DNA of 64,000 nt. It comes from Nitzschia sp. pyKryTriq1. Its lineage: Eukaryota > Bacillariophyta > Bacillariophyceae > Bacillariales > Bacillariaceae. Made by a program: the position numbers and the translations under genes. Positions 4,501 through 64,000 of this stretch are shown here, piece after piece (position 1 is the first letter of the stretch; the number at the start of each line of letters is the position of its first letter). The stretch is from NCBI GenBank assembly GCA_956465555.1, contig OY101127.1, forward strand, positions 124,001 to 188,000, given 5' to 3'. The notes beneath the pieces were generated by a model that did no database searches, had not been told where the DNA came from, and saw only the letters and a list, made by a program, of their open reading frames with translations.

Positions 4501-7500
4501 CTACTCCGCTTTTGTTGCTCCTTCTTCTGCTTCATTAGAACAAACGTTGGATGCAATGATTTCATGGTCAAACTGCACGACACGTCCTGGACCACGGGGT
4601 TGGTCGTCTCGTAACGTTTTGGTAAGCGAAGTTTTGCTAGCAAATGTATCGACAAATAGATCGGCCGTACTCTTGCTTTGGTCTAAGGAATAGTAGAGAT
4701 TCAAATCGACATGGGTACGACCATCCCAGACCATCATGACATTGCCACCGGAAAAAATGGCCACCGCAGCCGCTCCCTCTCCGACTTCTTTGAACGTAGA
4801 CCATCGCTGAATGTTTTTGGCCTCGATTCCAAGAACTTCTTGAATGGTTTCTTGGAGAGCTTGGTTCAACTCTTCGATGGATGGAATTTTTATGATAGAA
4901 GTCCTCGGAGGTTGTCCATCGTTGCCTTCTTCGTCTTTTTCCTCGATGAACTCGAATTGAAAGATACCTTGTCGACCCACTGGAATCTGTTCTGCTGCTT
5001 GAGCGAGGGCAGGCTGAGGGTCGTACGCATCTGGAGGAAATACTCGGGAGTCGTATTCCGAGTCGAAATAATGCATTCCTCCAATGATGGACTTGGCTTC
5101 TACTAAAATTGGCTCAAACGATGGACCGTTCCCGTCGTCGACAGGATCGACCATCAATTGGGCTTGGAGATTCTTCTCGAGGTCATGCAAATGTTGGAAG
5201 AATAGACGGTCATTAACGGCAGCAATGTGAAGTGCGTACTCATGATCATGATCATCATCTTGTTCTTGGTCCGATCCTGCCGAAATGGCTACTTCTGCTC
5301 GAGAAACGGGAAAGAAGTGCGACTCTTTGCGATAACGTTCCAGAACATTCATTCTCCAACCATTCTCCTTGTCAGCACCACTGTCTTTATTATTGCTCTT
5401 CTTGGAAAAAGCAACAAAGACATTTTGGTCAGAAAGTAGCGCTTCGCGATTGTTCGAGACGGAAAAGATACTGTTCAAGACCTGTCCCATGGCTCGTGGA
5501 GCCGATGGATCGATGATGACCATGTCGATATCTTCGTCGTCCTCATGCTTGGCCACAAACTGTAACAATTGTCGAAGCATGGACTTTTCGCACTCGTACA
5601 TGTGATCAACTATCTCCAACGACATGTCGGTAAAGTTTGAAACGGGAGGACATGCCCAAATAGGCTCGATAGCTATCGTTCTTCCTTCAATCTTGGATAG
5701 TACTTGAGCACTGGCGCAGTCAACCTTGGATTCCAATCCGCATAATACTAATGCTACCGTTGTTTCTTTTGGAGGCACGAAGCGAAGAGATTCTTTCAAA
5801 GAAACCTTGAGCGCGAGTGTGGCGAGATCGTAATCGTCCTTGGCCAATCCTTCATGATGTTTCTTCGATTCGTTTGTTTGACAATTTCTTGGTTGGGTGA
5901 TTTCAATACCAATATCATCCTTGTCGTTGTCCCAAGTTGAAGTGCCGTGCATTCCTCCCGCCACGACTCGGTAAAAGGAGGACGTTTCAGCTCCTACTGC
6001 CTTCAAGAGAGCGGCACGTAGACTTTCCATTTTTGAAAAGGCGCCCCACAAGTGAATATCAAAGGCAATGTATTTGTTAGCGTCAGCAGCGGTAGTAGCA
6101 CTAGTAGTAGTGGTATCGGAAGTAGTAGTGCGTCCCACCATATATCCTTCCTTCATGACCATGACCGAAATGGGTCCCTTGGAGTGCACCATGGGAGGCG
6201 ATAGGGGTGTCAGACCTTGCTCCTTGGCTACATTGAATAAAGTTGTTTCCAAATGCTCAGTCTCAAAATCATACGAGACATTGTAGGCTTCCAGAATCTC
6301 AATGAAGCCCGCTTTGGCTCCATGTTCAATCGAACCGATAATACCATCTTGGTCGTTGCATTTGCCTTGTTGTCGAGCATCCGTTTTGCGATAATCATGC
6401 ATGTACTTGTAGTGCCGGCTCTTGATATGCATGTACTTGTAGTCCCGGCTCTTGATATCGTCCAATGGTTCCAACAAGAGTCGATCGACCCTGTGATCTT
6501 TGGTAGGATGATGCAAAAAGTCGACTTGATTGCTTCCCATGACCAAGACTTGGGTACAAATCTTGGGAGTGCCGTAAAAGATTTGAATGGTATGATCAAA
6601 AAAGTCACTGAATTGATCAATGTAGGGCTCATTCTTCACCATGATCCCTTCTGGCTTGAGTAGAAGCGATAGCGCCGAAAAGATATCCATCGTTTTGGTC
6701 ACCGAAAAGGACATGACCGTCTCGGAAAGGTCCACCAAAACAAGATCAAACGAGCCCCAGTAATCGCGGGGCAATAGAGGAAGGCTCTTGGTAGCATCGC
6801 CGTACCACCATTCCACCTTGTCATTGTCCCAATGCGGTTGCGAATGAAAGTGCTGAAAGGATTTTCGTGTCACTTGTTGGTCCAGTTCCAAACCCACGAC
6901 TTTTTGGAGACTGGGGTATTTGAGTACCTCGTGCAAGAGCATCGAGTCGCCACCTCCAATAAAGATGACGCGTTCGATGCTGTTCATAAAGCGTGCTGGA
7001 AAGTGAACAAAGAATTCATGGTAATGGGGACGATAATTGGAACATATTTGGAGGGTATTTTCCAAGTTCATACAAACATCGTCGTCTGCTTCTCGTGTCA
7101 CAAACCAAAGCTTTTGGTAATTGGTTTGTAGATCTTCGATGGTTTCATACTGTTCGAATTCCAATAGTTGCGTCGTAGCACAACTTGGAAAAATATACTG
7201 GAGATAATCTTCTTCCTCCTTGAGGTCATCAAAGTGGCTTCCATAAATATCCAAGAGGGCGGCCTCACAGGCCCCTTCATTGGATGACATGATGTCCTCT
7301 TGACATTCTTCGGCCGTCTCATCGTCTTCATTTTCCAGTGATTGAATCGCAAATTGAAGCGCTTCTCCAATCGCTCGATAGTAGGCTCGAATCTGCTTCC
7401 ATTCGGTAGGAGGAATAACTGAATCTTCTTCTTCTTTCTCCTCCTCCTCACCACCACCATCATCATCATTGTCGTCCTCTAACAAATCGTAGTGAATGTT

Positions 7501-8979
7501 TTGGAACCGATAGAGCTTTCGAAGATGCTTCCGAAAAATGCGACGGATATAATTTCGAGCACGATCGTCAAATTGGAGATGTTCGGCCCATTGAACATGA
7601 ATACTGGTCTTGTCATCTGTGTTATGGTCATCGTCGTCGTCGTCGTCGCCTTGTACTTCAACAAGTTCAAAGGTAAGTTGTTCGGGAGCGTAGAGGGCAC
7701 CGACTCCATCTTGCGTTTCCAAAACGACAGCATTGGGTTGAAACGTCCAACGTTGTGGATACTGTTCGATCACTCCATAGTCTCGAAAGATTTCTGAAAG
7801 AAAAGAAAAGAAACGAAAGTAGTAGAGGGTGTGAGATCATCGTCACCATGTATGGCAGTACTATGACAGTACGATACGATATTTTTACGATTACGTACCT
7901 GGAGTTCCATACCCCGATTCGACCGCCTCTTCGTCGCATTGATCACATAGATCATAGCTATTGTGCAAAGGTTCTCCCGCTTGAATATCACGACGGGCCT
8001 TGATTTCGAAATAAAAATTCTTGTCAGCATCATCTCCTGCTCCTGGTACTGCTCCTGCTTGCAGAATATGGAGATTCGTTTCAATATTATAGTAATTTCC
8101 ATTCCGATGCGTGTACCAATCGTAGGTAGGAACCATGAAGGTATCGTACAAGCCTCGTTGTAAAATCAACGATGCGGCCACGGCACCATCATCGTTGTCG
8201 TCGTCACCCTGACAATTCGTATACCAATCTTCTTCCAAGACATTGACTGGTGCTCCCGGAGGAAGATCGGGATCGATTCCACCCAACAACTCCAAAAGGA
8301 GTTCCTTTCCGGCATTCGACCAAGCACTCGGAATCTTGGGCTGTTGTGGTTGACATTCTACTAGGGCATTCAAGTATTGAATATAGGGTGCAAAGAATGA
8401 TGATTTCGATGATGCTGCTGCTGATGATGATGATGATGATGATGAAGCTGATTCCTGCTTTGCCAATCGGAGCTCTTGCGCCAACACACGAGTCGTGTCA
8501 CAATTCAAACCGTCCCTTGTGATAATGTCCTCAAGGAGGAGGAGTGGGGAGGAGTTGTCGTCACCTGATGATGATGACGACGCTGATGATGATGATGGCG
8601 GCATGATAATCGATTGCCAGGGGATTTTGGATAGAATTTCTCCTTTTGGAATATCCTCCGTTGCATACAACATCCATCGTGACGATGATGATTCTTCTAA
8701 GCGTAGCTCTTGACTCGGATGAAAAATACCTCCGGGCTGTCCCCGAATCCACTCGATAATTCCAAAGGCGTCTGTCTTTTCATTATTGTTACGGAAGAAG
8801 GAACAACTATCATCACTGCCACCACTGCTGCTGCCGCTGCTGCCTCCGCCTTGTTGAGCAGGCGACACTGCAGATGCACCAGCGGCTAGTAGTAATAATA
8901 GCCCGAGGAGCCGCATCCCAATACTAGTAGTATGAAGCGATGCCATTGCGGCTTTGCGCATGATCATCCTCATCATCAA
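4501..8979 (-). CDS. SET - aminopropyltransferase - AdoMetDC-like fusion protein (paralogue A)
   Basis: Two exons: 8979-7899 and 7793-4501. The intron is GTACGT...TTTCAG, phase 1, and joins SGYGTP to EIFRDYG. The product has 1,457 residues. Residues 1-37 form a signal peptide (LLGLLLLLAAGASA). Residues ~75-385 are a SET domain of the RuBisCO-LSMT/SETD type: IPKGEILSKIP, DWYTHRNGNYYNI at ~287, ARRDIQAGEPLHNSYD at ~328, and a C-lobe running through YGTPEIFRDYGVIEQYPQRW. Residues ~600-790 are a spermidine-synthase fold: GGGD at 640-643, acidic E663 in GLELD, GD at ~692, catalytic-position D715 in VDLSE. Residues ~850-977 resemble prokaryotic AdoMetDC, but the pyruvoyl Ser, catalytic His and Cys positions are Gly910, Arg915 and Trp943. 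The remaining ~480 residues are unknown, apart from a second AdoMetDC-like segment (VMMVWDGRTHVDLNL) near the end. A 30-bp in-frame tandem duplication lies at 6399-6458. The tandem paralogue lies immediately upstream. Role inferred: polyamine/lysine modification in the secretory pathway. Confidence 0.88.
6399..6458 (-). repeat. 30-bp in-frame tandem duplication inside fusion gene A
   Basis: The unit containing catgtacttgtagt is present twice, head to tail, differing at one base. It encodes KSRDYKYMHI followed by KSRHYKYMHD, in the linker between the aminopropyltransferase and AdoMetDC-like domains. The paralogue has only a single corresponding segment (RYIHDYIK). This looks like a recent slippage event tolerated by a flexible linker. 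Confidence 0.85.
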
Positions 8980-9648
8980 GTGGTAGTTGTAGACGGAGAT
9001 GAAATGTTGTACTATTGTACTGTTGTTGTTGTTGTTGTTGTTGTTGTTGTAATAGTAAATGTGTGATGAGAGTACATGTCTGCTCTATTAGCTCTACTCT
9101 ACTAGCTAATAGTAGTAGAGGGAGAGATCATGAGGCGCACGATGATGAACGCAAAATTTGGACTATGCCCCGCTTTTATGACCGTTGGGCAAAGGCGCGC
9201 CAAAAACTTTCGCAAGTAGGCGACTGTGCTGTTTTATTCTGACATCACGTCATAATTTTTATCATGGCAGGTATCGCGCGCGTGACGTTATTTCGCCAAA
9301 ATAAACTATTTTCACAGACACAACAAAATACGCTGTACATAGCTTCTTCCGGTACAATGGATCCACCATATGATGCATTTCAGTCGTCTCAGAGCTCGAT
9401 GATGTTGTTGTCTGAACTTTAATCATCATCATCATCATCATCACGACACTATCGTTTTCGTTGGAGAACCGGAAGGCAGCAGGAAAGCCGAACAAAAAAG
9501 TCGCTCTTTTTCATTCTTGGTGCTCTTTTTGGCCACAAGCCAGCATCTATGTACGTACTGCTTTATAGACAGAATAACAATCAAGTTATAACATATGATA
9601 TAAAAATAGCCTTCCTCGCGCTTGTTGGAGTGGCTATTATTTCTATTA
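8980..9648. other. Spacer between fusion genes A and B
   Basis: This is the probable 5' region of gene A and 3' region of gene B. It holds a (GTT)n tract at 9021-9051, a GGCGCGCC palindrome at 9194-9201 that on the minus strand reads TTTTTGGCGCGCC (E2F-like), and a TGACGT at about 9283 followed by TTTCGCC. I see no gene. Confidence 0.5.
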
Positions 9649-12600
9649 TTACATTTTCGGTCGAGCAGCAGCAGCAGCAGCATCGACAAGACGAATCATG
9701 TCGTTTTGAAAGTTCACAACGCGTCCAATGCCCCGAGGTTGATCGTCACGGAGAGATCGCTCCAATCGGTGATGCTGGTCGACCGATTGGAGAAAGTGCG
9801 CGAGGAATCGGTCAGCAAGTTCACGACTTTCATCCAAACAAAACAAGTTAATGTCGACATGCTCCAGACCATCCCATACCATGACCAAACTTCCTTGTTC
9901 AAAAACAGTAGTAACCACGGCGCCATTTCCAACATCATCATCATGGGAGAATAATAACAATTGTTCGGACTTTTCCTTTTTCGCATCGTAATATGCCATG
10001 CTTTTCATTGTCTCCATCAATGCAGAGATGAGTTCATCCATGGATGGCATGATGGAAGCTGATACTTCATCTGTAGTACTCTTTTCCAATTGAAAGAGAG
10101 TTTGTCTTCCAAGAGGACGTTGTTCGGCCATTTGCTTTTGATTGGGTCCGTAATCGTAGTCCTCCGGACGGAAGGAACGCTCTTCCAACAAAAGATCGGT
10201 AGGAGTATGAAGTCGACCACCCTCGAGCAGTGTGAGCTCGATATCCGTTTGTGGAAGACGCTTTTGCAATCTATTTTTCATTTCCGAGATTGAATTAACG
10301 GCCGTTGGATCGTCAACTGTAAGGACTCTCCATCCCAAGTACTCTTGTTGGCTAGTGGAGCCCTGAAAGCTAATCTCTGCCATTGTAGTGACTGTTGTGT
10401 GTACCAACTTTCGAAAGAGATCCATGAATCGTTTGCGCTTTGGATCACTTTGAACGTCGTATGGCATAGCAACGACGTAATGATCTTCGAGAAATTCTTC
10501 GCGATGCTCGGGAACTGCCCAGACACTAGCAAGTATTTGGATCATGGAGAGAGGCGTGGCCAAGTCGATGAAAAGGCCGTCGAGCGTCAAGTCTTCGTCT
10601 TCATTGGACAAGGCCTCGAAATGTCTGATGAGATTCCTCTCGCAGTCGTACATTGGTTCAAAGTCGTAGGTACCATTGTTAAAGTAGGGAATACCGGGAC
10701 AGGCATAAATGGGAATCACAATGCCCACATGAGGATGCTTGCTCAACACCTCAAGGGACAAACAAGCCTCTTCCTCGCGACCACAAACAACAGCGACTAC
10801 CAAGTCTTCGGAGTCAGCCAGAAGATCCAATGATTCTTCAATGGCAACGGAAATGGCTTTGTTGGCGTCCAATGTCTTGCTAGACAAATCGGCTGCTGTA
10901 CAGTTGCGCTTTTGAGAAAACTGGACTCCAATTTCCTCCTTGTCTTGCTCCCAAGTACTACTACCATGCATTCCACCCACCACGACACGGTATGAGGACG
11001 TTGTTTGACTTTCGAGCGCTTCTACGAGAGCAGCACGGACACTTTCCATCTTGGAAAACGCGCCCCAGAAGTGCAGATCAAATCCGACGTACTTTAGCTC
11101 GGGCCACACACGAGCAACGACATAGCCTTCCTTCATGACGATTTGAATGGTCGAATTTCCTTGTTGTGTTTGTTGTTGTTGGGTACGTTGAGGCGAAACG
11201 GGAGTAAGGCCTTGGGCTTGAAGGACTTGATAGATCATACTTTCCAAATCTTGATCGATTCCTTTGGAACAATGCTCCGCTTCTAGCACCATCAGAATCC
11301 CCGCTTGGCGACCGTACTCCGTAGTGATCATGTCGATAGCGTCTTCTTTGCACTTTCCTTGAGCGATCGGATCGACTTTTATATAATCATGAATGTATCG
11401 GAATCGATCGCTTGGTTCTCCGACCTTATTGTCAATCAAAAACATGTCCACTTGGTGATCGTACATGGGAGATGTCAGGAAATCGACTGTATTGCTGCTG
11501 ACCGTATGGACTTGGACGCAGACTTTGGGAGATCCATAGAAGATATGGACCGTATGGTCAAAATGCCGAGCCATCTTGTCAATGTACAGTTCATTCTCGA
11601 GCATGACCCCTTCGGGTTTGAGCAACATGGAAATGACGTCCAACACATCGTGTTTACCCGTCACGTGCAATGACACTACCGTTTCGGAGAGATCGACCAA
11701 GAGCAAGTCAAAGGAGCCCCAGTAGTCTCGAGGCAAGAGTGGAAGTGTTTTTGTGGCATCTCCATACCTAAAGAAGATAAAAGAGCAAGGTAAGGCATTG
11801 AAGGAAGGACAACACCGCACAGCCTGTAGTACTGTACGACGTTACTCATGGATACTTGGTACGTACCACCATTCGACACGCGGATCGTCATAGTGCGGCT
11901 GCGTCTTGAAATGCTGAAAGGATTTTCGTGTCACAGTCTGATCCAATTCCAATCCTACTACCTTTTCTAACTGTGGATACTTAAGAATTTCATGAAGCAG
12001 CATGGCATCCCCTGATCCTAAAAAGATGACTCGTTTGATGGATTTCATGTATTGCGCCGGGAAATGGACAAAGAACTCATGGTAGTGTGGTCGATAGCTC
12101 GAACAAATCTGTAACACGCCATCCAAGTGAAGACAGGTATCATCGTCGTCTTCTCGATATTGCCATAGCATTTCTTGATAGTTGGATCGTTCTTTCTCAA
12201 ACTCTTGGTAGGAGAAAAAGTCCGTGAGCTCGGAACTCTCACAGTCCGGATTATTGTACGCCAAATGGTCCAACTCGACTTGAAAGTCTGTGTAGTGATC
12301 GTTCCAATGGTCCAGATTCCGACAAACACGTTCTGGATGCTTGTGGATATCATCACCATTGGTGTTGTTTTGTTCGAGGATGAGATGGTGAATATGAAAA
12401 ACGGCACGCTTCAATGCCATAGAGTAGGCCTCGTGAAATTCCCAAATATCTTCCCATTCTTCTGGTTTGATATCATAGTCTTGGTGATTGACACCTGCAA
12501 CTTCAATATTCTTGAGTCGATGTAGTGCTTCAATCCGAGATCGAAAGATCGCATCCATAAACTTATACATTTCGACATCATGATCTTCATCAAATGTCAC

Positions 12601-14155
12601 TTCAACCTCCATCTCGCCATTATCCTTTTCCTTTTCGCTCAATCGAAATCTCATGTCCAATCCATTCAGGGTGAGTTCCATTGTTTCTCCAGTCTCCTCA
12701 TCGATAAACGGGACCCTCATTTGCGTCTCGAGAATGCTCCATGTTTGTGGAAGGGCTTCAATGATTCCGTGATCGCGAAAGATTTCTAAACAATAATAAA
12801 TATGGATTGAGAACAATGGGAGAGATAGATGTGTGAGTAGATGATATGGTGATGCCGACAATGCATGAAATGAATGCATATTCCGAAAGTAACAAAAGAA
12901 ATGAAAGAAAACTGATACCGCACCGGTAGGACTCACCAGGTGTAGTAGTAGTAGTCAAAATATCCTCTTCTTCTTCGTCCTCATGATCATTCTTCTTCTG
13001 GCTACAATATTCGCCAGCACATTCCGTGTAGTAACTTGTATGAAGTTGTTCTCCGGGAGCAATGTCTCGTCGAGCGACCATTTGAGCAGAATACCTCGTC
13101 TTTCCTTTTTCTCCTGGTGACTGCTGTTCCTGCTGTTCCTCGTCTACTCGTATCAATTGAATATCAACATTATGGTAACGTCCACTCCGATGAGTATACA
13201 TATCCTTGAGCGGTATCATCCGATCCGCATTGTATCCATGTTGTTGGACCCACATGGCAGCTTGAATGCCACGTTGTTGCTTCCTCCTTTCCCTAATGCG
13301 TTCTGGACTGTCTTGAATTATTTCATCAACGCCTTCGTCGTCGTCTTCGTCGTCGTCCACGTAGTCGTCCACGTAGTCGTCAATAAGACCTATATCCGCA
13401 CCACACAAGACCTTCCAATCCCAAAAGACATAATTGACCGGATGTTCCATCAATTCAATGAGAAACTGCTCCCCACCCAATATTTCGAGGAATAATCCCT
13501 TGGCGGCCGGAGAGTATTGACTCGGAAGTTTGTTCTTTTGGTGGGGCAGCAAGTAGGAGGATCGAAGATGCGATAGATAGGGTGCAAAGAATGACGACGA
13601 CGACGAAGCATCGTCATCATCATCGTCATCGTCATCGTCATCGGAACCCTTCTCTTCTTCCGCTTTTTCTTCTTCTTTTTGCAATTCATCCCATAGAGCT
13701 CTTGCCGTACCACAGTCAAAATGTGCTTCATCAGTAGCAGTATTACTACTACTAGTAGGACTAGTAGTAGCGACAATCATGGCGCTCTCAGGAATCGTCG
13801 CCAAGACGGAACCTTGGGGAATGAACGATTTTGCAAACACGCCTCGCTGGACAACATTCTTTTCAATTTCATTGTTTCTGTCGCCCCATACAATTCGTTG
13901 TTTGGTAAAATCAAAAGACGCGCCTTCTTGTGAAAGTAGCCACTTGAAAAGAGGTTGTTGTTGTTGTTGTTGTTGTTGCTCTTCTTCTTCAGCAGCAGCA
14001 GCAGCAGCAGCAGCATTTTGGCAAGAGTCCTCGTTGTCGGCTGCCAGCACGACCAGCGATGAAGACGACGACGAAGACGCCAGAAAGAACAACGCCACGG
14101 CTAGTGCGTGTAATACGTGGTGTCGTTTCCAAAACGAAAACGCCGGCCCAAACAT
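9649..14155 (-). CDS. SET - aminopropyltransferase - AdoMetDC-like fusion protein (paralogue B)
   Basis: Three exons: 14155-12937, 12785-11867 and 11767-9649. The introns are GTGAGT...TTTAG (phase 1, same position as in paralogue A) and GTACGT...TTTAG (phase 2, inside the aminopropyltransferase domain, absent from A). The product has 1,418 residues. I chose the second in-frame ATG (MFGPAFSFWK) because it leads directly into a hydrophobic signal peptide; an ATG 13 codons upstream is possible. The SET domain spans ~100-430 (GVFAKSFIPQGSVLATIP; DMYTHRSGRYHNV; ARRDIAPGEQLHTSYY). The aminopropyltransferase core spans ~625-810: LDGVLQICSSYRPHYHEF, GSGDAM ~663, VDLSE ~737. The AdoMetDC-like part (~865-985) keeps WPE at 934-936 but has Gly, Arg and Trp at the Ser/His/Cys positions. 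The C-terminal ~430 residues are shared with A and end with a second AdoMetDC-like half (VMVWDGLEHVDINLFC) and RDDQPRGIGRVV. A and B are clearly homologous throughout but well diverged, so the tandem duplication is old. Confidence 0.88.
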
Positions 14156-34124: not shown

Positions 34125-35399
34125 TTATGATCTCGTCTTTTTCGTCCGTCGCTTGGCGTTGGCACGTGGGTCAAACACAAATCCAATTTCCATGAGCTTG
34201 GCGATTCTCCCCAAGGTCAAATACGATTTCGCAGGGCCTTCCGTTCGGAAAATCTTGTACTGGCGGCGTTCTGAACACAAAAGCAGAAGACAGTTACATG
34301 AGATGTGATGATCGTGGTTGAAACCCAAAGATGATGATAGTACGATAGACGAGAGGAACCTCGAAGCCGATAGGTATTACTTACGACATTTGCACCAGAC
34401 TCCAAGCTGTGGGTTTTCCTTGTACTTTGTCGGAACATTAGTGTGCCCCGTCAGGTCCTTGAACATATTTAGCTCGTTCCATCGCTCTTCCCAGAAAACT
34501 GCGTGCGAATCCCAGACGAAACCCAAATCCTCGAGCATGACGATTCGCTCGTCCGTCAGAGTCGAAGGGCGATCATTGCGCTCTTCGTGCCGGAGCTTGT
34601 ATTGGTAGCGCTGTCGTTTGACCCACTGAGCGAGAGGAGTATTGGCAGGCCAGTAGCTTGGGATACAACAGTGTCCGTGCTGGCTCTTGAATGCTACAAG
34701 CTCGTTGTAACGCTCCATCCAGCGCAGGGACTGACTGTCAGAGATGTTTGGAACTCGTTGCCTACTGCTGCTCTCCGTACTGCTGCTGGACGACACAAGA
34801 GCAGGCTCAGCTAGCAAAGTCATCATGGAGGACTGTGTCAGCGACAACCCGCTACCGGCATGTCGTGCTGGCTCGGAAGAGTAGACGGCACCAGCAGTGG
34901 CGAAGGATGAACTGCTCATGAAATCGAGTATCATCTGATGCTGCGGAGGAGCAGGCGCTGCGCTGGACGACGAGGGGAGCATCTTGAATGGATCGTTGCT
35001 ACTTGAAGCAGGCGAGGCGCTTTCCAAACCCTGGAACCATGGCGCACTGAAGAAGTCGTTGGCCCTGGGAGGGTGGACGTCGTCATCCTCGGGCGAGTCG
35101 CCGCCCAAAGAGGACGCGTCCCCGTCAAATTCCTTGAGGAAGTCTTCTTCGCAGAACTCGTCGAGCTCGGCTCTTTGAATGGACAGGGATGGTGGGGCCA
35201 CCGTACCTTGAGCCAGCGACAAGCTTTGGAACTCGTTGTGGGTGTTACGGGTCATGAACGAAAGCGGCACCGGTTCCGCCTGGCCGCTGCTGCTGCCTTG
35301 AGAATTCATGTGATGATGATTCATCATCACCAGCCTCTCGTCGATTGGCGTGGGTTCGAACAACGAAAACAGCGAGTCTTTGTTCGTTCGAGAGTTCAT
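34125..35399 (-). CDS. Helicase-associated-domain protein, copy 1
   Basis: Two exons: 35399-34385 and 34270-34125. The 114-bp intron (GTAAGT...TTCAG) joins GVWCKC to QRRQYKIFRTEG. 386 residues. Residues 1-~220 are Ser/acidic-rich. Two helicase-associated (HA) domains follow at ~226-298 (RWMERYNELVAFKSQHGHCC, LAQWVKRQRYQYK, LTDERIVMLEDLGFVWD) and ~302-373 (RWNELNMFKDLTGHTNVP, LGVWCKCQRRQYK, GRIAKLMEIGFVFDPR). HA domains are three-helix nucleic-acid-binding modules, widespread in diatoms outside helicases. A basic KRRTKKTRS tail ends the protein. Copy 2 at 39941-41176 has the same exon structure. Function is probably DNA binding or regulatory. Confidence 0.85.
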
Positions 35400-36937
35400 T
35401 GTTGTTAAGACGGATCAGATGATAATAGTAGCTAGATTAGAAAGATAGGTCTTTCAAGGGATGAATGCTTCGTGTACAGTAACAATAAGGAATTTTTTTG
35501 TGCGCAATCTCTCAATTACACAATAGCGGCAACAATCTTAAGTCCGTAAACAAAATGTTAAGACATCGGAAAGTGACGAAGAGCTGTGTAGAAAGCTTAT
35601 CATGTATACGGAATCGCACGTGGCCCCTACCTGCTTGTTCGCTCGGATCAGAACCCGTTTCAACGAATTCTGACAGAGCATTCCAATGGATAGGACATTG
35701 TCAAGGAAAATGCGCTGCTCAAGGAATGCTGGCAAGCATGTCCTTGGCTCGGCCGCTTTGAGCTTTGACATGGGTTGAAATCTGCGTGGAAAAGACATTT
35801 TTCGATTATCCGGGATGCTCTTCCCTAATAGTTCATCAGTCAACTTTGCGTGAAAAAGACATTTTCTGAGTATCCGGTATGTTCGTTCACTGTCAACATG
35901 TAAATCATTAAATAGGAGTCAAATGCGAAATAGAAACGCCGCTTTCGTCAGTCATTCCGCTTCTTTTTTCAAGAATTTGCGAATTTGTAAAAATGGAGGG
36001 GCATATGAGTAATCCAGAACTGCAAACTGAAATCTTACCTGAGTCATGCAGGGTAGCGCTACCGGTACAGTGCATTCTGCCGATTTTACAGTACCAGGTA
36101 CCGCACCGCCGCTACCAGTGAATTTGTACCTGAAGATGGTTGATGGACGCATGCACAAAGAGAGTAATTTGAACCTCTCGTCATCCCATAATAATATTCA
36201 TGCAACGTCGAAACTGCTCCGTCACTATTTTGCAATTTGGATAGGTATGCCCCTTCTCCAACTGCACTTTTGTTGCAAAGCAAGGAGGACGGCAAAAACA
36301 GCACAACGAACTAAATGGGGAAGCAAGCATCAAGCATACTGCTCCTACCACAGTACGTACAGTACAACAAAGAGAGGATACACCTCACCATCTCCACTAT
36401 TGTGGCATCCATCAATAGTAGTCGGTTGGGTAGATTATTGGAAATAGAAATTGCAAGCTGAGATGCTGATAGAGTTACAAAAAGAGCAAGCACTATAGTA
36501 CTGTGGAAGAAGAGAGCTATACCATGGACACCTGCCGATACTAGATGACCATACAGTTCAGGTCTACAGCAGATCGAACAAAAAATGGCTGGTTTGGCTC
36601 CTACTACCCCTCATCTACCATATCATTGTTGAATTCTCCTCCAAATTGTCTCGTCATGCTGGCATCCCGATTCTAGTACTCTATTGTTTTGATATGGTAT
36701 AGTCGGAGTGTGCAATGAGGCTCGTATTTCCAGGTGCTGTCCGCGAGCCTGTGGCACCACCTAATGGATTCTGGTGGTTGTCGTACAAAATCAGCAAGGA
36801 ACCAAGAAGATTAGCATAACAATCCTACTAGAGTAACTCGTAGAGTGTAAGAGGAGCGTCCTTTAAGCTGCGCAACCTCCTTTTTGAGAAAAGTCTGAGG
36901 ACGCGGCATGATATCTACTCTACTAGTACTAGTACTA
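35400..36937. other. 5' flank of HA gene, part of the duplicated block
   Basis: Up to about 36500 patches match the corresponding flank of copy 2 (41177-41920), for example CTTATCATGTATACGGAAT against CTTACCATGTATACGAAAT, and GAATTTGCGAATTT. A direct repeat, GCGTGGAAAAGACATTTT and GCGTGAAAAAGACATTTT, occurs at 35787 and 35853. No gene. Confidence 0.5.
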
Positions 36938-39940: not shown

Positions 39941-41176
39941 TTACGATCGCGGCGTCTTTTTCGTCCGTCGCTTGGCGTTGGCACGTGGGTCAAACACAAA
40001 TCCAATTTCCATGAGCTTGGCGATTCTCCCCAAGGTCAAATACGATTTCGCAGGGCCTTCCGTTCGGAAAATCTTGTACTGGCGGCGTTCTGAGCACAAA
40101 AGCAGAAGACAGTTACATGAGATGTGATGATCGTGGTTGAAACCCAAAGATGATGATAGTACGATAGACGAGAGGAACCTCGAAGCCGATAGGTAGTACT
40201 TACGACATTTGCACCAGACTCCAAGCTGTGGGTTTTCCTTGTACTTTGTCGGAACATTAGTGTGCCCCGTCAGGTCCTTGAACATGTTTAGCTCGTTCCA
40301 TCGCTCTTCCCAGAAAACTGCGTGCGAATCCCAGACGAAACCCAAATCCTCGAGCATGACGATTCGCTCGTCCGTCAGAGTTGAAGAGCGATCATTGCGC
40401 TCTTCGTGCCGGAGCTTGTATTGGTAGCGCTGTCGTTTGACCCACTGAGCGAGAGGAGTATTGGTAGGCCAGTAGCTTGGGATACAACAGTGTCCGTGCT
40501 GGCTCTTGAATGCTACAAGCTCGTTGTAACGCTCCATCCAGCGCAGGGACTGACTGTCAGAGATGTTTGGAACTCGTTGTCTGCTGCTGCTCCCAGTACT
40601 GCCGCTGGACGACAAACGAGCAGGCTCAGCTAGCAGAGTCATCATGGAGTACTGTGTCAAGGACAACCCGCTACCAGCATATCGTGCTGGCTCGGAAGAG
40701 TAGACGGCACAAGCAGTGGCGAAGGATGAACTGCTCATGAAATCCAGCATCATCTGATGCTGCGGAGGAGCAGGCGCTGCACTCGCCGACGAGGAGAGCA
40801 TCTTGAATGGATCGTTGCAACTTGAAGCAGGCGAGGTGCTTTCCAAACCCTGGAACCATGGCGCACTGACGACGTCGTTGGCCCTGGCAGGCTGTGCGGC
40901 CCCGTCAAATTCCTTGAGGTAGTCTTCTTCCCAGAAATTGTCGAGCTCGGCTCTTTGAATGGAAAGGGATAGCGGGGCCACCGTACCTTGAGCGAGTGAA
41001 AAGCTTTGGAGCTCGGTGTGGGTGGTATGGGTCATGAACGAGAGTGGCGGCGGTTCCGCCCGGCCGCTGTTGCTGCCTTGAGAATTCATGTGATGATTCA
41101 TCATCACCAACCTCTCGTCGATTGGCGTGGGTTCGAACAACAAAAGCAGCGAGTCTTTGTTCATTGGAGAAGTCAT
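39941..41176 (-). CDS. Helicase-associated-domain protein, copy 2
   Basis: Two exons: 41176-40204 and 40089-39941, with a 114-bp intron at the same position as in copy 1. In this copy the intron happens to be open, so an unspliced 411-residue frame also exists; splicing (373 residues) restores the HA-domain core CQRRQYKIF and is preferred. Nearly identical to copy 1 over both HA domains and the intron. The acidic region after EFDG is shortened (EFDGAAQPARAND against EFDGDASSLGG...PRAND). Recent duplication. Confidence 0.85.
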   Translation of the reverse strand: MTSPMNKDSLLLLFEPTPIDERLVMMNHHMNSQGSNSGRAEPPPLSFMTHTTHTELQSFSLAQGTVAPLSLSIQRAELDNFWEEDYLKEFDGAAQPARANDVVSAPWFQGLESTSPASSCNDPFKMLSSSASAAPAPPQHQMMLDFMSSSSFATACAVYSSEPARYAGSGLSLTQYSMMTLLAEPARLSSSGSTGSSSRQRVPNISDSQSLRWMERYNELVAFKSQHGHCCIPSYWPTNTPLAQWVKRQRYQYKLRHEERNDRSSTLTDERIVMLEDLGFVWDSHAVFWEERWNELNMFKDLTGHTNVPTKYKENPQLGVWCKCRKYYLSASRFLSSIVLSSSLGFNHDHHISCNCLLLLCSERRQYKIFRTEGPAKSYLTLGRIAKLMEIGFVFDPRANAKRRTKKTPRS

Positions 41177-41942
41177 CGTCGTTAAAAAGACGGATCAGAT
41201 GATACAGAGGGGTGGGATATGATGACTCTACTAGCTAGTAGAGTAGAAAGATAAGTCTCTCGAGGGATGTGAACGGTGCCGGTAGTAAATCATGGATTTT
41301 TAGTGCGCAATCGCAATAATTTGCTCATCGGAAATCGAAGATTGTTGCTTCTCTATTCGCGACACATATGCTGACGAGAGCGAACGTGTAAAATACTTAC
41401 CATGTATACGAAATTCACGTGGCCGTTGTTCGGAGTCGTTCCTCAAAACGATGGAAGTTGGCCAACAACCAACTCTGTCTCTTTTATATCACATTGTTCC
41501 ACGTTGGATTGGCCAGTAGATTGGACAGACGATTTCCCGAAAATTGTTTGGTATTCCACTTTTATTGTACGTGTACTTAGTCTACTCATAACCAGGGACA
41601 ATTATAGGTCCCTGCTTGCAAAGCGGCACATTATTTACTTGCTTTCCGGCATATATTTGCAGAATTTGCGAATTTACAAACAAGGTAGGGCATATGCGTA
41701 GTGAGATTGGACGTCCGGTTGAGTTCTGTAGTGGATAGATAACAACTGGCGACGACGACGTGCATAGCGGTATCCTCTTTGCTCCAAATACTCCCGCTAA
41801 TTGTGGCATATACCAACAATCAATCGTCAGCCATGCATATATATGGGTAGAATAGACATAGAAATAGTAAGCTGAAATGATGATGGATAGTGCACCTCAA
41901 ACAGAACAAGAAACAGTACCGGTAATAGAGACGAATCACTGG
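41177..41942. other. 5' flank of HA copy 2
   Basis: Patchily homologous to 35400-36500. No gene is seen. Confidence 0.45.
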
Positions 41943-60191: not shown

Positions 60192-62413
60192 CTAAACTGC
60201 ATGCTGATAATTATTCTTGTTGTCCCGCTGTTTCTGGATTTTGACCGTATCGAAGAAAACCATTTGCATAGTAGCTCGATATTCCTCGTCACTACTACTA
60301 GATCTTCCTCCTTCTTGCTGGTGGGCAGCAAGAAGAAACCAAGGACGAGTCGTCGTCGTCGTCGTCGTTGTTGTTGGCTTGTTCTTCTTTGAAGTAGCAG
60401 TAGTAGTAGATGGATCGATTGTTATTGCAGTGAGAGTAGGTTGTTTCGCACCAGCATGATGCTGGCCAAGTTCAGAATGGACGACTGGTTCTTGGTCAAA
60501 ATGGTGGTGGCCATCCTCCTCCTCGTCGTCGTCGTAGACATCGTAATCATCATTATCACTTTGGTGACTCGCCAAGAGTTTGGTGGACAGTTGCGACAAG
60601 GGACTTGTAATAGTAGTAGTAGGAGCGGAAGCCCGAAAAGGACGACGATCCGAGGAGGATGTTGACGACGATGCCGACCAGATAGGGACAAAAAATGGCC
60701 GACGCTGGTGGTGGTGAACACTGGCAATAGTACTTCTTCTTTTGCTGCGGCTGCAGCTGCAGCTGCTGCTGTTGGTGGAAGAGCCATTACCAATCCTCCT
60801 GACAATGGAAGATATGGACGTCGCCCGACGACTCCTTTTTTCGCCTCGAGAGTAGTATGTGTCGTTGGTTGGGAGGTCGGTCAAGAAGGAATCATCCTTG
60901 TTCTCGAGGTTCTCCTTGCGACTACTAATACCACTAGTAGATGCGTTTTCGTCGTTCTTTGTCATGATGATCTTCTTCTTGGCTTGTGGTTGGTGGTCTT
61001 CGTGGTTTGCTCTTCTTCCTGCGGTTTTTTCCTCTGCGACTAATGGTGGTTTGATGGTTGGGCTTTCTGGTTTTGAAATACCAACACCAACAACGATTGA
61101 AGTAGCAGGAGTAATAGAAGGATCTCCTCCGGAATGCTGGTCCTCTTCTTTGGAGTGGGGTTGTTGTCGTTGCTTGTTGCTGGTGATCATGGTGAGGTAT
61201 GCTGTTTTTTCGTTCTTCTTGGTGGAGTTTACTATGGAGCCATCCTTTTCGTCAGCAGCAGCAGCAGCAGCAGCAGCAGCGTACAACAATGAGTATTCTT
61301 CTTCTTCTTCTTCTTCTTGGCCGTTCTTGGTACCAGGATGTGATGGTATGGCAGCAGCAGTAGTAGTAGTACCGGTAGTAGGTCTCGTTGGACGACTCCT
61401 TCTTGATGATGTTATAGGCGAAGATGGCGGCGGCGGTGGTGGTGGTAGTGGTGGTGCCTTTATGAATTTTTCAGCATGGGCCAAAAGCCACGACTCCATC
61501 ACTTGTAAAGAAGTCTTGTTGTTCTTTTCCACTTTTTCTTTTTCTTGTTGTTGCTGTTGTTGTTCTGCCACCTCTTTGGTTGCTGCTGCTGTTGCTGCTG
61601 TTGCTGGTGGTGGTTCTGACCTGGTTGTTCTTCTTGTCTTTCTTTGCTGATGATCGTGGCCCACCATCATTCGCAGCATCCGAAATCTGTTTGGTTGGTT
61701 ATTGCTGGCGGCGGCGTTAGTAGTTGTAGTAGTAGTGCAAGCACTTTTACTAGTACTGCCAACAAATAATGATAATGGAGGGGGGTGTAGTTCGTTCGTC
61801 GATGACGATAATGGTGATAATGGTGATGATGATACTGGTGATGATTGTCCATTTGATTCTTCTGCCTCTGCTGCTGAAATAATGATTCTTCTGTTGTTGC
61901 TGTTACTGCTGTTGTTACTGCTATTATTGTTGTTGTTGTTGTTGTTGTTGTTGGACGGTATCATTGGCACTCTGGTTGTACTATCGACCACGGCTGATGG
62001 ATCATGCGTCGTCGCTTTAGGGAGTATTGCCTTTGCCGACGCCGCCACCGCCGCCGCCAAAGGTGATGATGATGGTGGTGGTGGTGGTGGTGATTCGCCT
62101 GTGGATGAGAGTAAGTCATGATTACTGTTAGACTTGGTAATAGTGATGGACGAAAGCGGTTGATGCTGCTGTTCTCGTTGTTCTTCTGAGATGGATCGTG
62201 TTTTTGTTGTGGTTGTGGTTGTGGCTGTGGTTGTGGTTGTGGTTCTGCTTCTTGTTCTTCTTGTTTGTTGTACAATGATGGAGAGGAAATAGGCGACCCA
62301 ACAGAATATTGCCATCATCATCATGAATGCCATGACGAACAACACTTCCTCAATCTTCCATACTATTATTATTATTTCCTCCTCCTCCTCCTGCTGCTGC
62401 TGCTGTTGCTTGG

Positions 62414-62446
<33 letters not shown>

Positions 62447-63146
62447 GTTCAACAAGGCTGATGGACGAGGCGGCTCGTCTGCTACTACTACTTGCAGTAG
62501 TAGTAGTTGTTGTTGTATCATTCTTCTTTTTAGCAGTATTCGTATCCTCATTGAGAAGAACAAGAACAACACCGTTATCCAAATCAATGTTATCATTATT
62601 GGAGGAGGAGGAAGGGGGGGTGCTGGTCGTGGCTCGAATCGTCATCATCGTCGTCGTCGTCGTCGTCGTCATCCGTGGCTTCTTGCTGTCGGCGTTTGTG
62701 GAGTTTTGTCCTTTTTCTTCTTTTTCTTTTTCTGCTTCTTCTTCTTTTTCTTCTTTTTCTTCTTTTTCTTCTTCTTCTTCTTCAGAGGAGGAGGAGGAGG
62801 TGCTGCTGCTGATCATCATCATCGTAGCAAGATTATGAGAATCCAGAGGACACTGCGGGTGATGCTGATGCTGATGCTGATGCTGATATTGATGCTGATA
62901 TTGATGCTGACACTCGCCCGGCGGAACCCCCAGCATCATCCACGACGGTGGTGTCACAACATCCTCCACATGACGATCTGGTGGCAGGACAGCAGCATCA
63001 ATACTTACTATTTCAATTGCATGATCACCATCACCATCACCATCGCCATCATCCAATAAATAGCCAGAAGGAGAAAAAGAAGGAGAAGACGACGAAGGGG
63101 TTGTAGTAGTACTTGCAGTACGCAAGATTGCGCCGACTTGTTCCAT
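60192..63146 (-). CDS. Low-complexity single-pass membrane protein with EYRxTMQMVFFDT C-terminus
   Basis: 984 residues from ATG 63146. The protein is dominated by Ser, Thr, Gln, His, Glu and Lys runs. One hydrophobic segment (VLFVMAFMMMMAIFCWVAYFLSIIV, part shown at ~residue 270) predicts a single membrane span. A more ordered patch around SFLTDLPTNDTYYSRGEKRS follows late in the protein. The C-terminus reads RPWFLLAAHQQEGG...EEYRATMQMVFFDTVKIQ, the same motif as at the end of the basic protein at 25542-27671. The long runs make the exact reading frame dependent on assembly quality, but both ends share one frame. Confidence 0.6.
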
Positions 63147-64000
63147 ATTCTTGTCGCTGTTGCTAGTATTTTACCTGGGGTAATACTGAATGAATTGCTG
63201 AATGAATGAATGAATGAATGAATGAATGGCTGAATGAATCGTCGTAGCTGATCTCTACTACGTACTACTGGCAGTGTGTATTACCTACTAATATACTGGT
63301 ATACTGGTATACTGGTAGTGTCGCTAATGAATGGAAAAGGAATAAGTATATTATGGATACCGGTAATAAATCAACAAGGATAAGCAATATAAGCACCGAA
63401 CAGCATCGTCGCGTCGTCGTCGTCGTGGTCAAAAAGAAAGAAAGAAAAACGAGAAGGCAGCATCATCGCATCATCAGCATCAGCGCCATACTCGTAAAAT
63501 TTAGGGTACAGTAATAGCGCAATAGCAGTACCTGATGGTACTGGTACCGGTACTGTCAAAAGCAAAATCTTCAAAAGAAGATCTCCCTCCAGCGCGCATC
63601 TCCGCGCATCGTCCCTCCCCGCATCATCATTCATTCCCATCCAGCGAGAGTATTAGAATTTGGGGGGTCCCCATCACATCTCATCCTCGGACGCACCCTT
63701 ATTCTTTCGTACGTGATGATAACGAGAGACGTCCAGACCAAAAAATATGCTGATGAAAAAAGCGCGCGCTTTTTCTTTCCACCACACAATCGCCTCATGC
63801 GCATAATAGTCAGCATCATGCAGACTATTATTGTTTTACTCTCATCAGCAAAATGCGACGGGAAAAGATGATAGAATATCTTCTCGCTGCGCTACTACTG
63901 CCTTTACATTTCTTTTTACATCGCATCGATCATCATCATCACCAACCATAAATACCATCATCACCTCATTCTACCCGTACTTCCTCCCCCCCCCCCCATA
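63147..64000. other. Right-end spacer
   Basis: (GAAT)n at 63200-63228, GGTATACTGGTATACTGGTA at 63297-63316, the palindrome AAAAAAGCGCGCGCTTTTT at 63756-63774, and a C-run at 63988-63997. No gene is supported. Confidence 0.5.

Follow-up and report, generated by a model that had tools for sequence, protein, structure and literature searches.

Tandem genes of a Nitzschia diatom join SET and aminopropyltransferase domains to an AdoMetDC-like domain that lacks the decarboxylase catalytic residues

Two adjacent genes, here called A and B, lie within positions 4501-14155 of a 64,000-nucleotide stretch of DNA from the diatom Nitzschia sp. pyKryTriq1 (hereafter the window; assembly GCA_956465555.1, contig OY101127.1, positions 124,001 to 188,000 of the forward strand). 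Each encodes a protein combining a SET domain, an aminopropyltransferase (APT) domain and regions resembling S-adenosylmethionine decarboxylase (AdoMetDC). Both are on the minus strand, in the same direction, with 672 bases between them. Gene A (4501-8976) consists of two exons (8976-7899 and 7793-4501) encoding 1,456 residues, and gene B (9649-14155) of three exons (14155-12937, 12785-11867 and 11767-9649) encoding 1,418 residues. These models were derived from splice sites, open frames and alignment with paralogues. Introns were selected by eye, guided by the paralogues; all are GT-AG, and the joined exons give open frames. The start codons are putative, each taken as the first ATG in its frame; the outer coordinates follow a preliminary description of the region. 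The coordinates, protein sizes and domain order given in that description agree with our gene models and with Pfam, and the presence of two tandem SET/APT/AdoMetDC-like genes is confirmed.

The source genome (40.65 Mb in 20 contigs, with eight silicon-transporter matches above the Pfam cut-off) has at least seven genes built in this way: A, B, C13_454, C13_466, C16_398, C16_403 and C15_211. The search used the APT, C-terminal and SET parts of gene A as queries; the number is a lower bound, because scores were obtained for the best candidates only. As for A and B, the splice sites of the other paralogues were picked by eye. Pairwise identity among the seven proteins is 25-51%, and a common layout at such divergence shows that the arrangement of A and B is not due to chance. 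The tandem pair itself must be old, since A and B are only 39% identical. Over 1,313 aligned codons, they differ at 49, 38 and 67% of first, second and third positions respectively, a pattern indicating selection on the protein. In a tree of the seven, A and B grouped with C15_211 (support 97/95) and C13_454 with C16_398 and C16_403 (99/96); two branches were very long.

If the SET exon belonged to a separate gene, not joined to the APT, the whole layout would be an artefact of gene modelling. The frame of gene A exon 1 does meet a stop within a few codons past the proposed donor, which fits such an artefact. However, three observations argue for the junction. In C15_211, the SET tail, including its Tyr, and the APT are read in one open frame. 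In six of the seven genes, a phase-1 intron occupies a common position, directly before the EIFRDYG segment or its match. Finally, a SET protein without an APT (L044) continues directly after its SET part into a segment of the same kind, IYRDFGFLEEYPQEW, which in A and B is carried by the exon following the SET exon. A modelling artefact is therefore extremely improbable and, according to the gene models, SET and APT form part of one coding sequence, as in the diatom SET/APT/AdoMetDC fusion proteins.

Two SET proteins of the genome have no APT: L044 (G000 C5) and L041, which lies on the minus strand and adjoins C16_398. Both show a post-SET segment of the same kind, and the APT searches of the genome found no match beside either gene. 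They perhaps represent the SET module from which the fusion family arose. A search with L044 returned EZH2 as its sole match (E 0.22). Scanning a prokaryote genome collection and IMG/VR with the family alignment gave 58 and 73 pattern matches respectively, none of which was confirmed; because such a scan looks for no more than one or two short pieces of conserved sequence, absence is not shown.

The APT domain spans residues 616-746 of A (6634-7026, minus strand) and 640-770 of B (11596-12087, minus strand, with the intron 11866-11768 inside). Both are above the Pfam Spermine_synth cut-off of 22.9 bits, with 62.1 bits (E 6.5e-17) for A, which displays GGGD, ELD, GDA and DLSE motifs, and 52.7 bits (E 5.2e-14) for B. 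A profile of the family matched 25 distinct Protein Data Bank (PDB) sequences at E <= 5.9e-6, of which 24 are named spermidine or thermospermine synthase or polyamine aminopropyltransferase, the other (8iyi) being named by locus only. No AdoMetDC was found among the 28 PDB matches of this profile at E <= 1. The acid of the GxG-D motif, which binds decarboxylated AdoMet (dcAdoMet), is present in six of the seven paralogues (Asp642 in A, Asp666 in B), and the final Gly of GxG(D/E)G is replaced by Ser in A and by Ala in B. All seven proteins have ELD, GDA and, in DxSE, the first Asp. The second acid of DxSE is Glu in five, Lys in C13_466 and Thr in C15_211. Gene A misses the NCBIfam equivalog cut-offs (92.6 bits against 260 for NF002010; 59.2 against 249.55 for TIGR00417). 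Judged by these scores, its APT is a distant relative and not a standard SpeE; as the scores are far below the cut-offs, its acceptor may not be the one that SpeE uses. In C13_466 (L040), the change to Lys is accompanied by GSGA instead of GGGD, and this member is probably a non-catalytic APT that has been kept in the family.

METTL13 and the fungal NHMT are spermidine-synthase-like protein methyltransferases; the former has two transferase domains and the latter is found in the endoplasmic reticulum (ER) (PMC6109062, PMC10349129). A and B have the same type of fold and might likewise use AdoMet (as METTL13-C and NHMT do) to methylate proteins or amines, which would make them double methyltransferases for silica proteins. 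The ER location of NHMT, a weak Methyltransf_12 match to the protein, below the Pfam cut-off, and the variable second APT acid all fit this alternative. In contrast, the GxG-D acid required for dcAdoMet (PMC10349129) is Ile in NHMT and retained in A and B, and the best matches of the family are aminopropyltransferases. We consider a double methyltransferase unlikely.

The SET domain extends over residues 101-341 of A (7954-8676, minus strand; Pfam SET, 26.0 bits, E 1.3e-5) and 104-375 of B (13031-13846, minus strand; 23.8 bits, E 6.4e-5), both above the cut-off of 22.4 bits. The Asn-His pair of SET lysine methyltransferases is absent from both proteins, where the NH motif reads TH (T289-H290 in A, T321-H322 in B). 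Across the family, the first residue of this motif is Asn in four of the seven members, Thr in A and B, and Ala in C16_398. From the SET pattern, we take the column of Tyr341 (A) and Tyr375 (B) to be that of the catalytic Tyr. It is kept in six members, C16_398 having Gln, and four members keep both the Asn and the Tyr. Searching the DNA with a pattern for GYDMYNH brought up C13_454 and C16_403 alone, and nothing new was gained from it. With the Asn gone, the SET domain of A and B is probably weak, inactive or used as a docking part. In MLL5, replacement of this Asn by Arg is tied to lost AdoMet binding (PMC5094779); since Thr is smaller than Arg, the domain of A and B may be weak rather than dead.

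The first AdoMetDC-like domain covers residues 853-995 of A (5887-6315, minus strand) and 877-971 of B (10993-11277, minus strand). In B it was matched by Pfam AdoMet_dc at 24.4 bits (E 4e-5; cut-off 25) in the spliced protein and at 28.9 bits in a six-frame search of the genome. In A, no AdoMet_dc match was obtained with Pfam at E <= 1, and the domain was placed by alignment with B and the paralogues and by profile comparison with AdoMetDCs. In this comparison, the seven domains were set against six of the eight AdoMetDCs of the genome; they aligned with E 9.3e-5 and a probability of 59%, KEGY of the family standing opposite LESH of the decarboxylases. B and the AdoMetDC L045 align ungapped over 21 residues from that Ser, with V, W, P, E, D and L in common, as read from the alignments.

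Ser63, His68 and Cys83 of the Thermotoga maritima AdoMetDC are essential for self-processing and catalysis (PMC10407285). The corresponding positions are G909, R914 and W942 in A and G927, R932 and W947 in B. None of the seven paralogues keeps any of the three residues, which are replaced throughout by Gly, Arg and Trp (Ser in C13_466 at the third position). Because the triad is lost in all members, the first domain should not act as a pyruvoyl decarboxylase or make dcAdoMet. The Gly and Arg at the former Ser and His positions are invariant in seven divergent paralogues, which we take as a sign of a newly fixed state rather than of decay still under way. A hypergeometric calculation for the invariance of catalytic columns (2 of 3 among 10 of 130; P 0.015) was made post hoc and is not used as proof.

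These losses bear directly on a reading drawn from the preliminary description, by which each protein would be a complete silaffin-modifying machine combining dcAdoMet synthesis, aminopropyl transfer and lysine N-methylation. Three domain types do occur in one secreted-type protein, the APT motifs are kept, and four of the seven paralogues have both the Asn and the Tyr in the SET domain. However, all seven are without the AdoMetDC Ser, His and Cys, and A and B without the SET Asn. The idea of every activity residing in each protein is therefore not borne out, and such a machine is very unlikely.

A second AdoMetDC-like domain may, with modest confidence, be present at the C terminus, at residues 1290-1440 of A (4552-5004, minus strand; from alignment with B) and at 9688-10128 of B (minus strand). 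An AlphaFold2 model of the B C-terminal part had a predicted local distance difference test (pLDDT) score of 59.8, and its nearest PDB folds were the N-terminal part of human spermine synthase and a bacterial AdoMetDC. Between the two AdoMetDC-like domains, the middle region of A (residues 1015-1261; 5089-5829, minus strand) displays an alpha/beta pattern in a low-confidence model, and neither Pfam nor NCBIfam gave a family match there. A model of the entire AdoMetDC-like/middle/C-terminal block built from two sequences reached a pLDDT of 37.4 and was kept out of the fold search. We also considered the middle region as a second, decayed APT resulting from an APT-AdoMetDC duplication; the hhalign comparison (E 0.054, probability 1%, with six unrelated domain pairs at 0.17-0.47) was insufficient. 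In C15_211 (L043), an insertion of about 120 residues, absent from the other six members, occurs in the second AdoMetDC-like region. It seemingly consists of two similar halves, VLFQYDDNVWLGMWTAATVV... and VLYRKELEGTEVWLQGFVV..., which gave us the impression, and no more than that, of something Tudor- or SH3-like.

Both proteins begin with a signal-peptide-like N terminus, as judged by hydropathy: residues 1-36 of A (8869-8976, minus strand) and 1-39 of B (14039-14155, minus strand), with hydrophobic cores at residues 23-34 and 14-25 respectively. The hydropathy count revealed no transmembrane-like stretch beyond the N terminus in either protein, and both are predicted to be secreted. Plastid targeting of A is not favoured: its signal region has ASA followed by V, not F, and plastid signals carry an ASAF-type motif. 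Taken together, Pfam, the gene models and hydropathy support the claim that this silicifying alga joins SET and APT in a single protein of putatively secreted type.

The genome also contains eight loci encoding AdoMetDC-APT fusions, which served as a control for the triad loss: the ESH...H...C pattern is kept in seven. The other locus, L052 (G000 C6, about 1,774,000), has lost two AdoMetDC residues, Ser and Cys (KGKGHVSIHAWP), and keeps GGGEC in its APT. A hydrophobic 19-residue stretch was found in each of the seven N termini tested. This stretch could be a membrane anchor, and the fusions might reside in one compartment with proteins of the A/B type. Three of these genes (L048, L049 and L050; G000 C7, about 1,448,600-1,456,200) follow one another at a spacing of about 3.65 kb with near-identical AdoMetDC parts. 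Over 3,285 ungapped bases, L049 matches L050 at 89% identity; L048 is 67% identical to either. The cluster looks like tandem amplification with exchange.

Such catalytic fusions would be the partners if A, B and their paralogues were regulators whose pseudo-AdoMetDC domains pair with and activate them. The trypanosome prozyme, a catalytically dead AdoMetDC paralogue forming an active complex (PMC5201418, PMC6221367), provides a precedent, and the seven intact triads and hydrophobic N termini described above are consistent with it. A pure regulator, however, would have no need of the kept APT motifs. Prozyme, moreover, derives from the eukaryotic class of AdoMetDC and not from the bacterial one, which also counts against a regulatory role of this kind, and we hold it to be quite unlikely.

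The reading that we prefer, and to which we give an even chance of being right, is that A and B are secreted APTs of the known diatom SET/APT fusion kind with scaffold-type pseudo-AdoMetDC domains. The APT domain would be the working part, binding dcAdoMet made by other enzymes; the AdoMetDC-APT fusions of the genome, with seven triads of eight intact, are candidate sources. The aminopropyl group would be added either to a growing long-chain polyamine or to a silica protein, on a side chain formed by lysine or polyamine, outside the cell or in a vesicle lumen. The two AdoMetDC-like domains, having no pyruvoyl cofactor from the usual Ser, would most likely serve as a scaffold for dimerisation or assembly, as in animal spermine synthase, or alternatively as a ligand-sensing pocket. 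The SET domain would have been acquired as a whole module that looks capable of methylation in some paralogues and, with its NH Asn lost, is probably weak, inactive or substrate-docking in A and B. The analysis shows the gene structures, the domains present and which motif residues are kept or lost; secretion, partners, enzymatic activity and a role in silica formation are all proposals of this scheme.

Results given above that speak for rival readings are the early stop past the gene A donor, the Methyltransf_12 match and the unconserved second APT acid. The homology of the first domain to AdoMetDC is only moderately supported: the Pfam and NCBIfam AdoMetDC models match one of the seven members only. 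In the reverse search with a hidden Markov model of the AdoMetDCs, B scored 8.3 bits (E 0.3; the best of 2,100 shuffles reached 4.9 bits), C13_454 scored among the shuffles and the other five were not among the matches listed. A phmmer search with the AdoMetDC-like domain of B gave nothing in the PDB at E <= 1, and a profile of the domain gave five weak, unrelated matches.

The architecture of A and B has already been described in print. Bacterially derived AdoMetDC-APT fusions, some with a domain of the histone-methyltransferase type, were described in diatoms and proposed to make long-chain polyamines (Michael 2011, FEBS Lett 585:2627, as cited in PMC3820600, PMC12533330 and PMC12803844). 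Like them, A and B combine APT, AdoMetDC-type and SET-type domains in one diatom protein, and the link drawn in the preliminary description to published AdoMetDC/APT fusions holds; as a whole, its interpretation is partly supported. As far as the citing papers allow comparison, A and B differ in their order (SET, APT, AdoMetDC-like, middle, AdoMetDC-like) and in the loss of the catalytic residues and of the NH Asn. They also resemble the diatom-specific SET methyltransferases tied to wall proteins, silica wall formation and long-chain polyamines (Nemoto 2020, as cited in PMC11554505 and PMC11151724). The AdoMetDC-derived domain of animal spermine synthase no longer has AdoMetDC function and is required for dimer formation and activity (PMC12803844). 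The proposed combination of an APT with a non-catalytic AdoMetDC-like domain would be similar, and the modelled B C-terminal fold resembles the human N-terminal part; unlike that enzyme, A and B have the reverse domain order, two AdoMetDC-like domains, an added SET domain and a signal-like start. In Nitzschia inconspicua, 32 APT fusion proteins are reported (PMC12803844). A different paper describes one AdoMetDC-APT fusion transcript as raised with aluminium (PMC12533330).

A and B are thus of a published kind. To this we add, in so far as novelty relative to Michael 2011 and Nemoto 2020 can be judged through the papers citing them, an AdoMetDC-like domain without catalytic residues in seven genes, a probable second such domain, variation in the SET motif and support from the genome for the fusion. 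No mention of lost AdoMetDC residues or of SET NH loss in such proteins was found in the portions of the open-licence literature consulted, where no search was aimed at those words in diatoms.

By what route diatoms make long-chain polyamines and link them to silica proteins remains open, and their APT fusions were named in 2025 as an area in need of study (PMC12803844). If the AdoMetDC part is non-catalytic and the SET domain variable, assays would shift towards aminopropyl transfer with dcAdoMet supplied and towards complexes formed with the catalytic AdoMetDC-APT fusions, and away from a self-sufficient enzyme. More speculatively, the fixed Gly and Arg could mean that the AdoMetDC-like part was rebuilt, not lost, into a new pocket that would sense or pass on AdoMet, dcAdoMet or a polyamine in the silica-forming compartment. 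Switching the SET domain off in some members, for which Thr-His in A and B and Ala-His plus the missing Tyr in C16_398 are candidates, would give enzymes that differ in how far they methylate or aminopropylate and that could so vary the lysine and polyamine patterns on silica proteins. We regard this extension as doubtful.

Elsewhere in the window, two genes (34380-35414 and 39944-41194) contain Helicase associated (HA) domains according to Pfam; a helicase domain was not found in the same frame. A 992-codon open frame at 60195-63170 gave no Pfam match at E <= 0.001, and a pair of long open frames on the opposite strand overlaps it.

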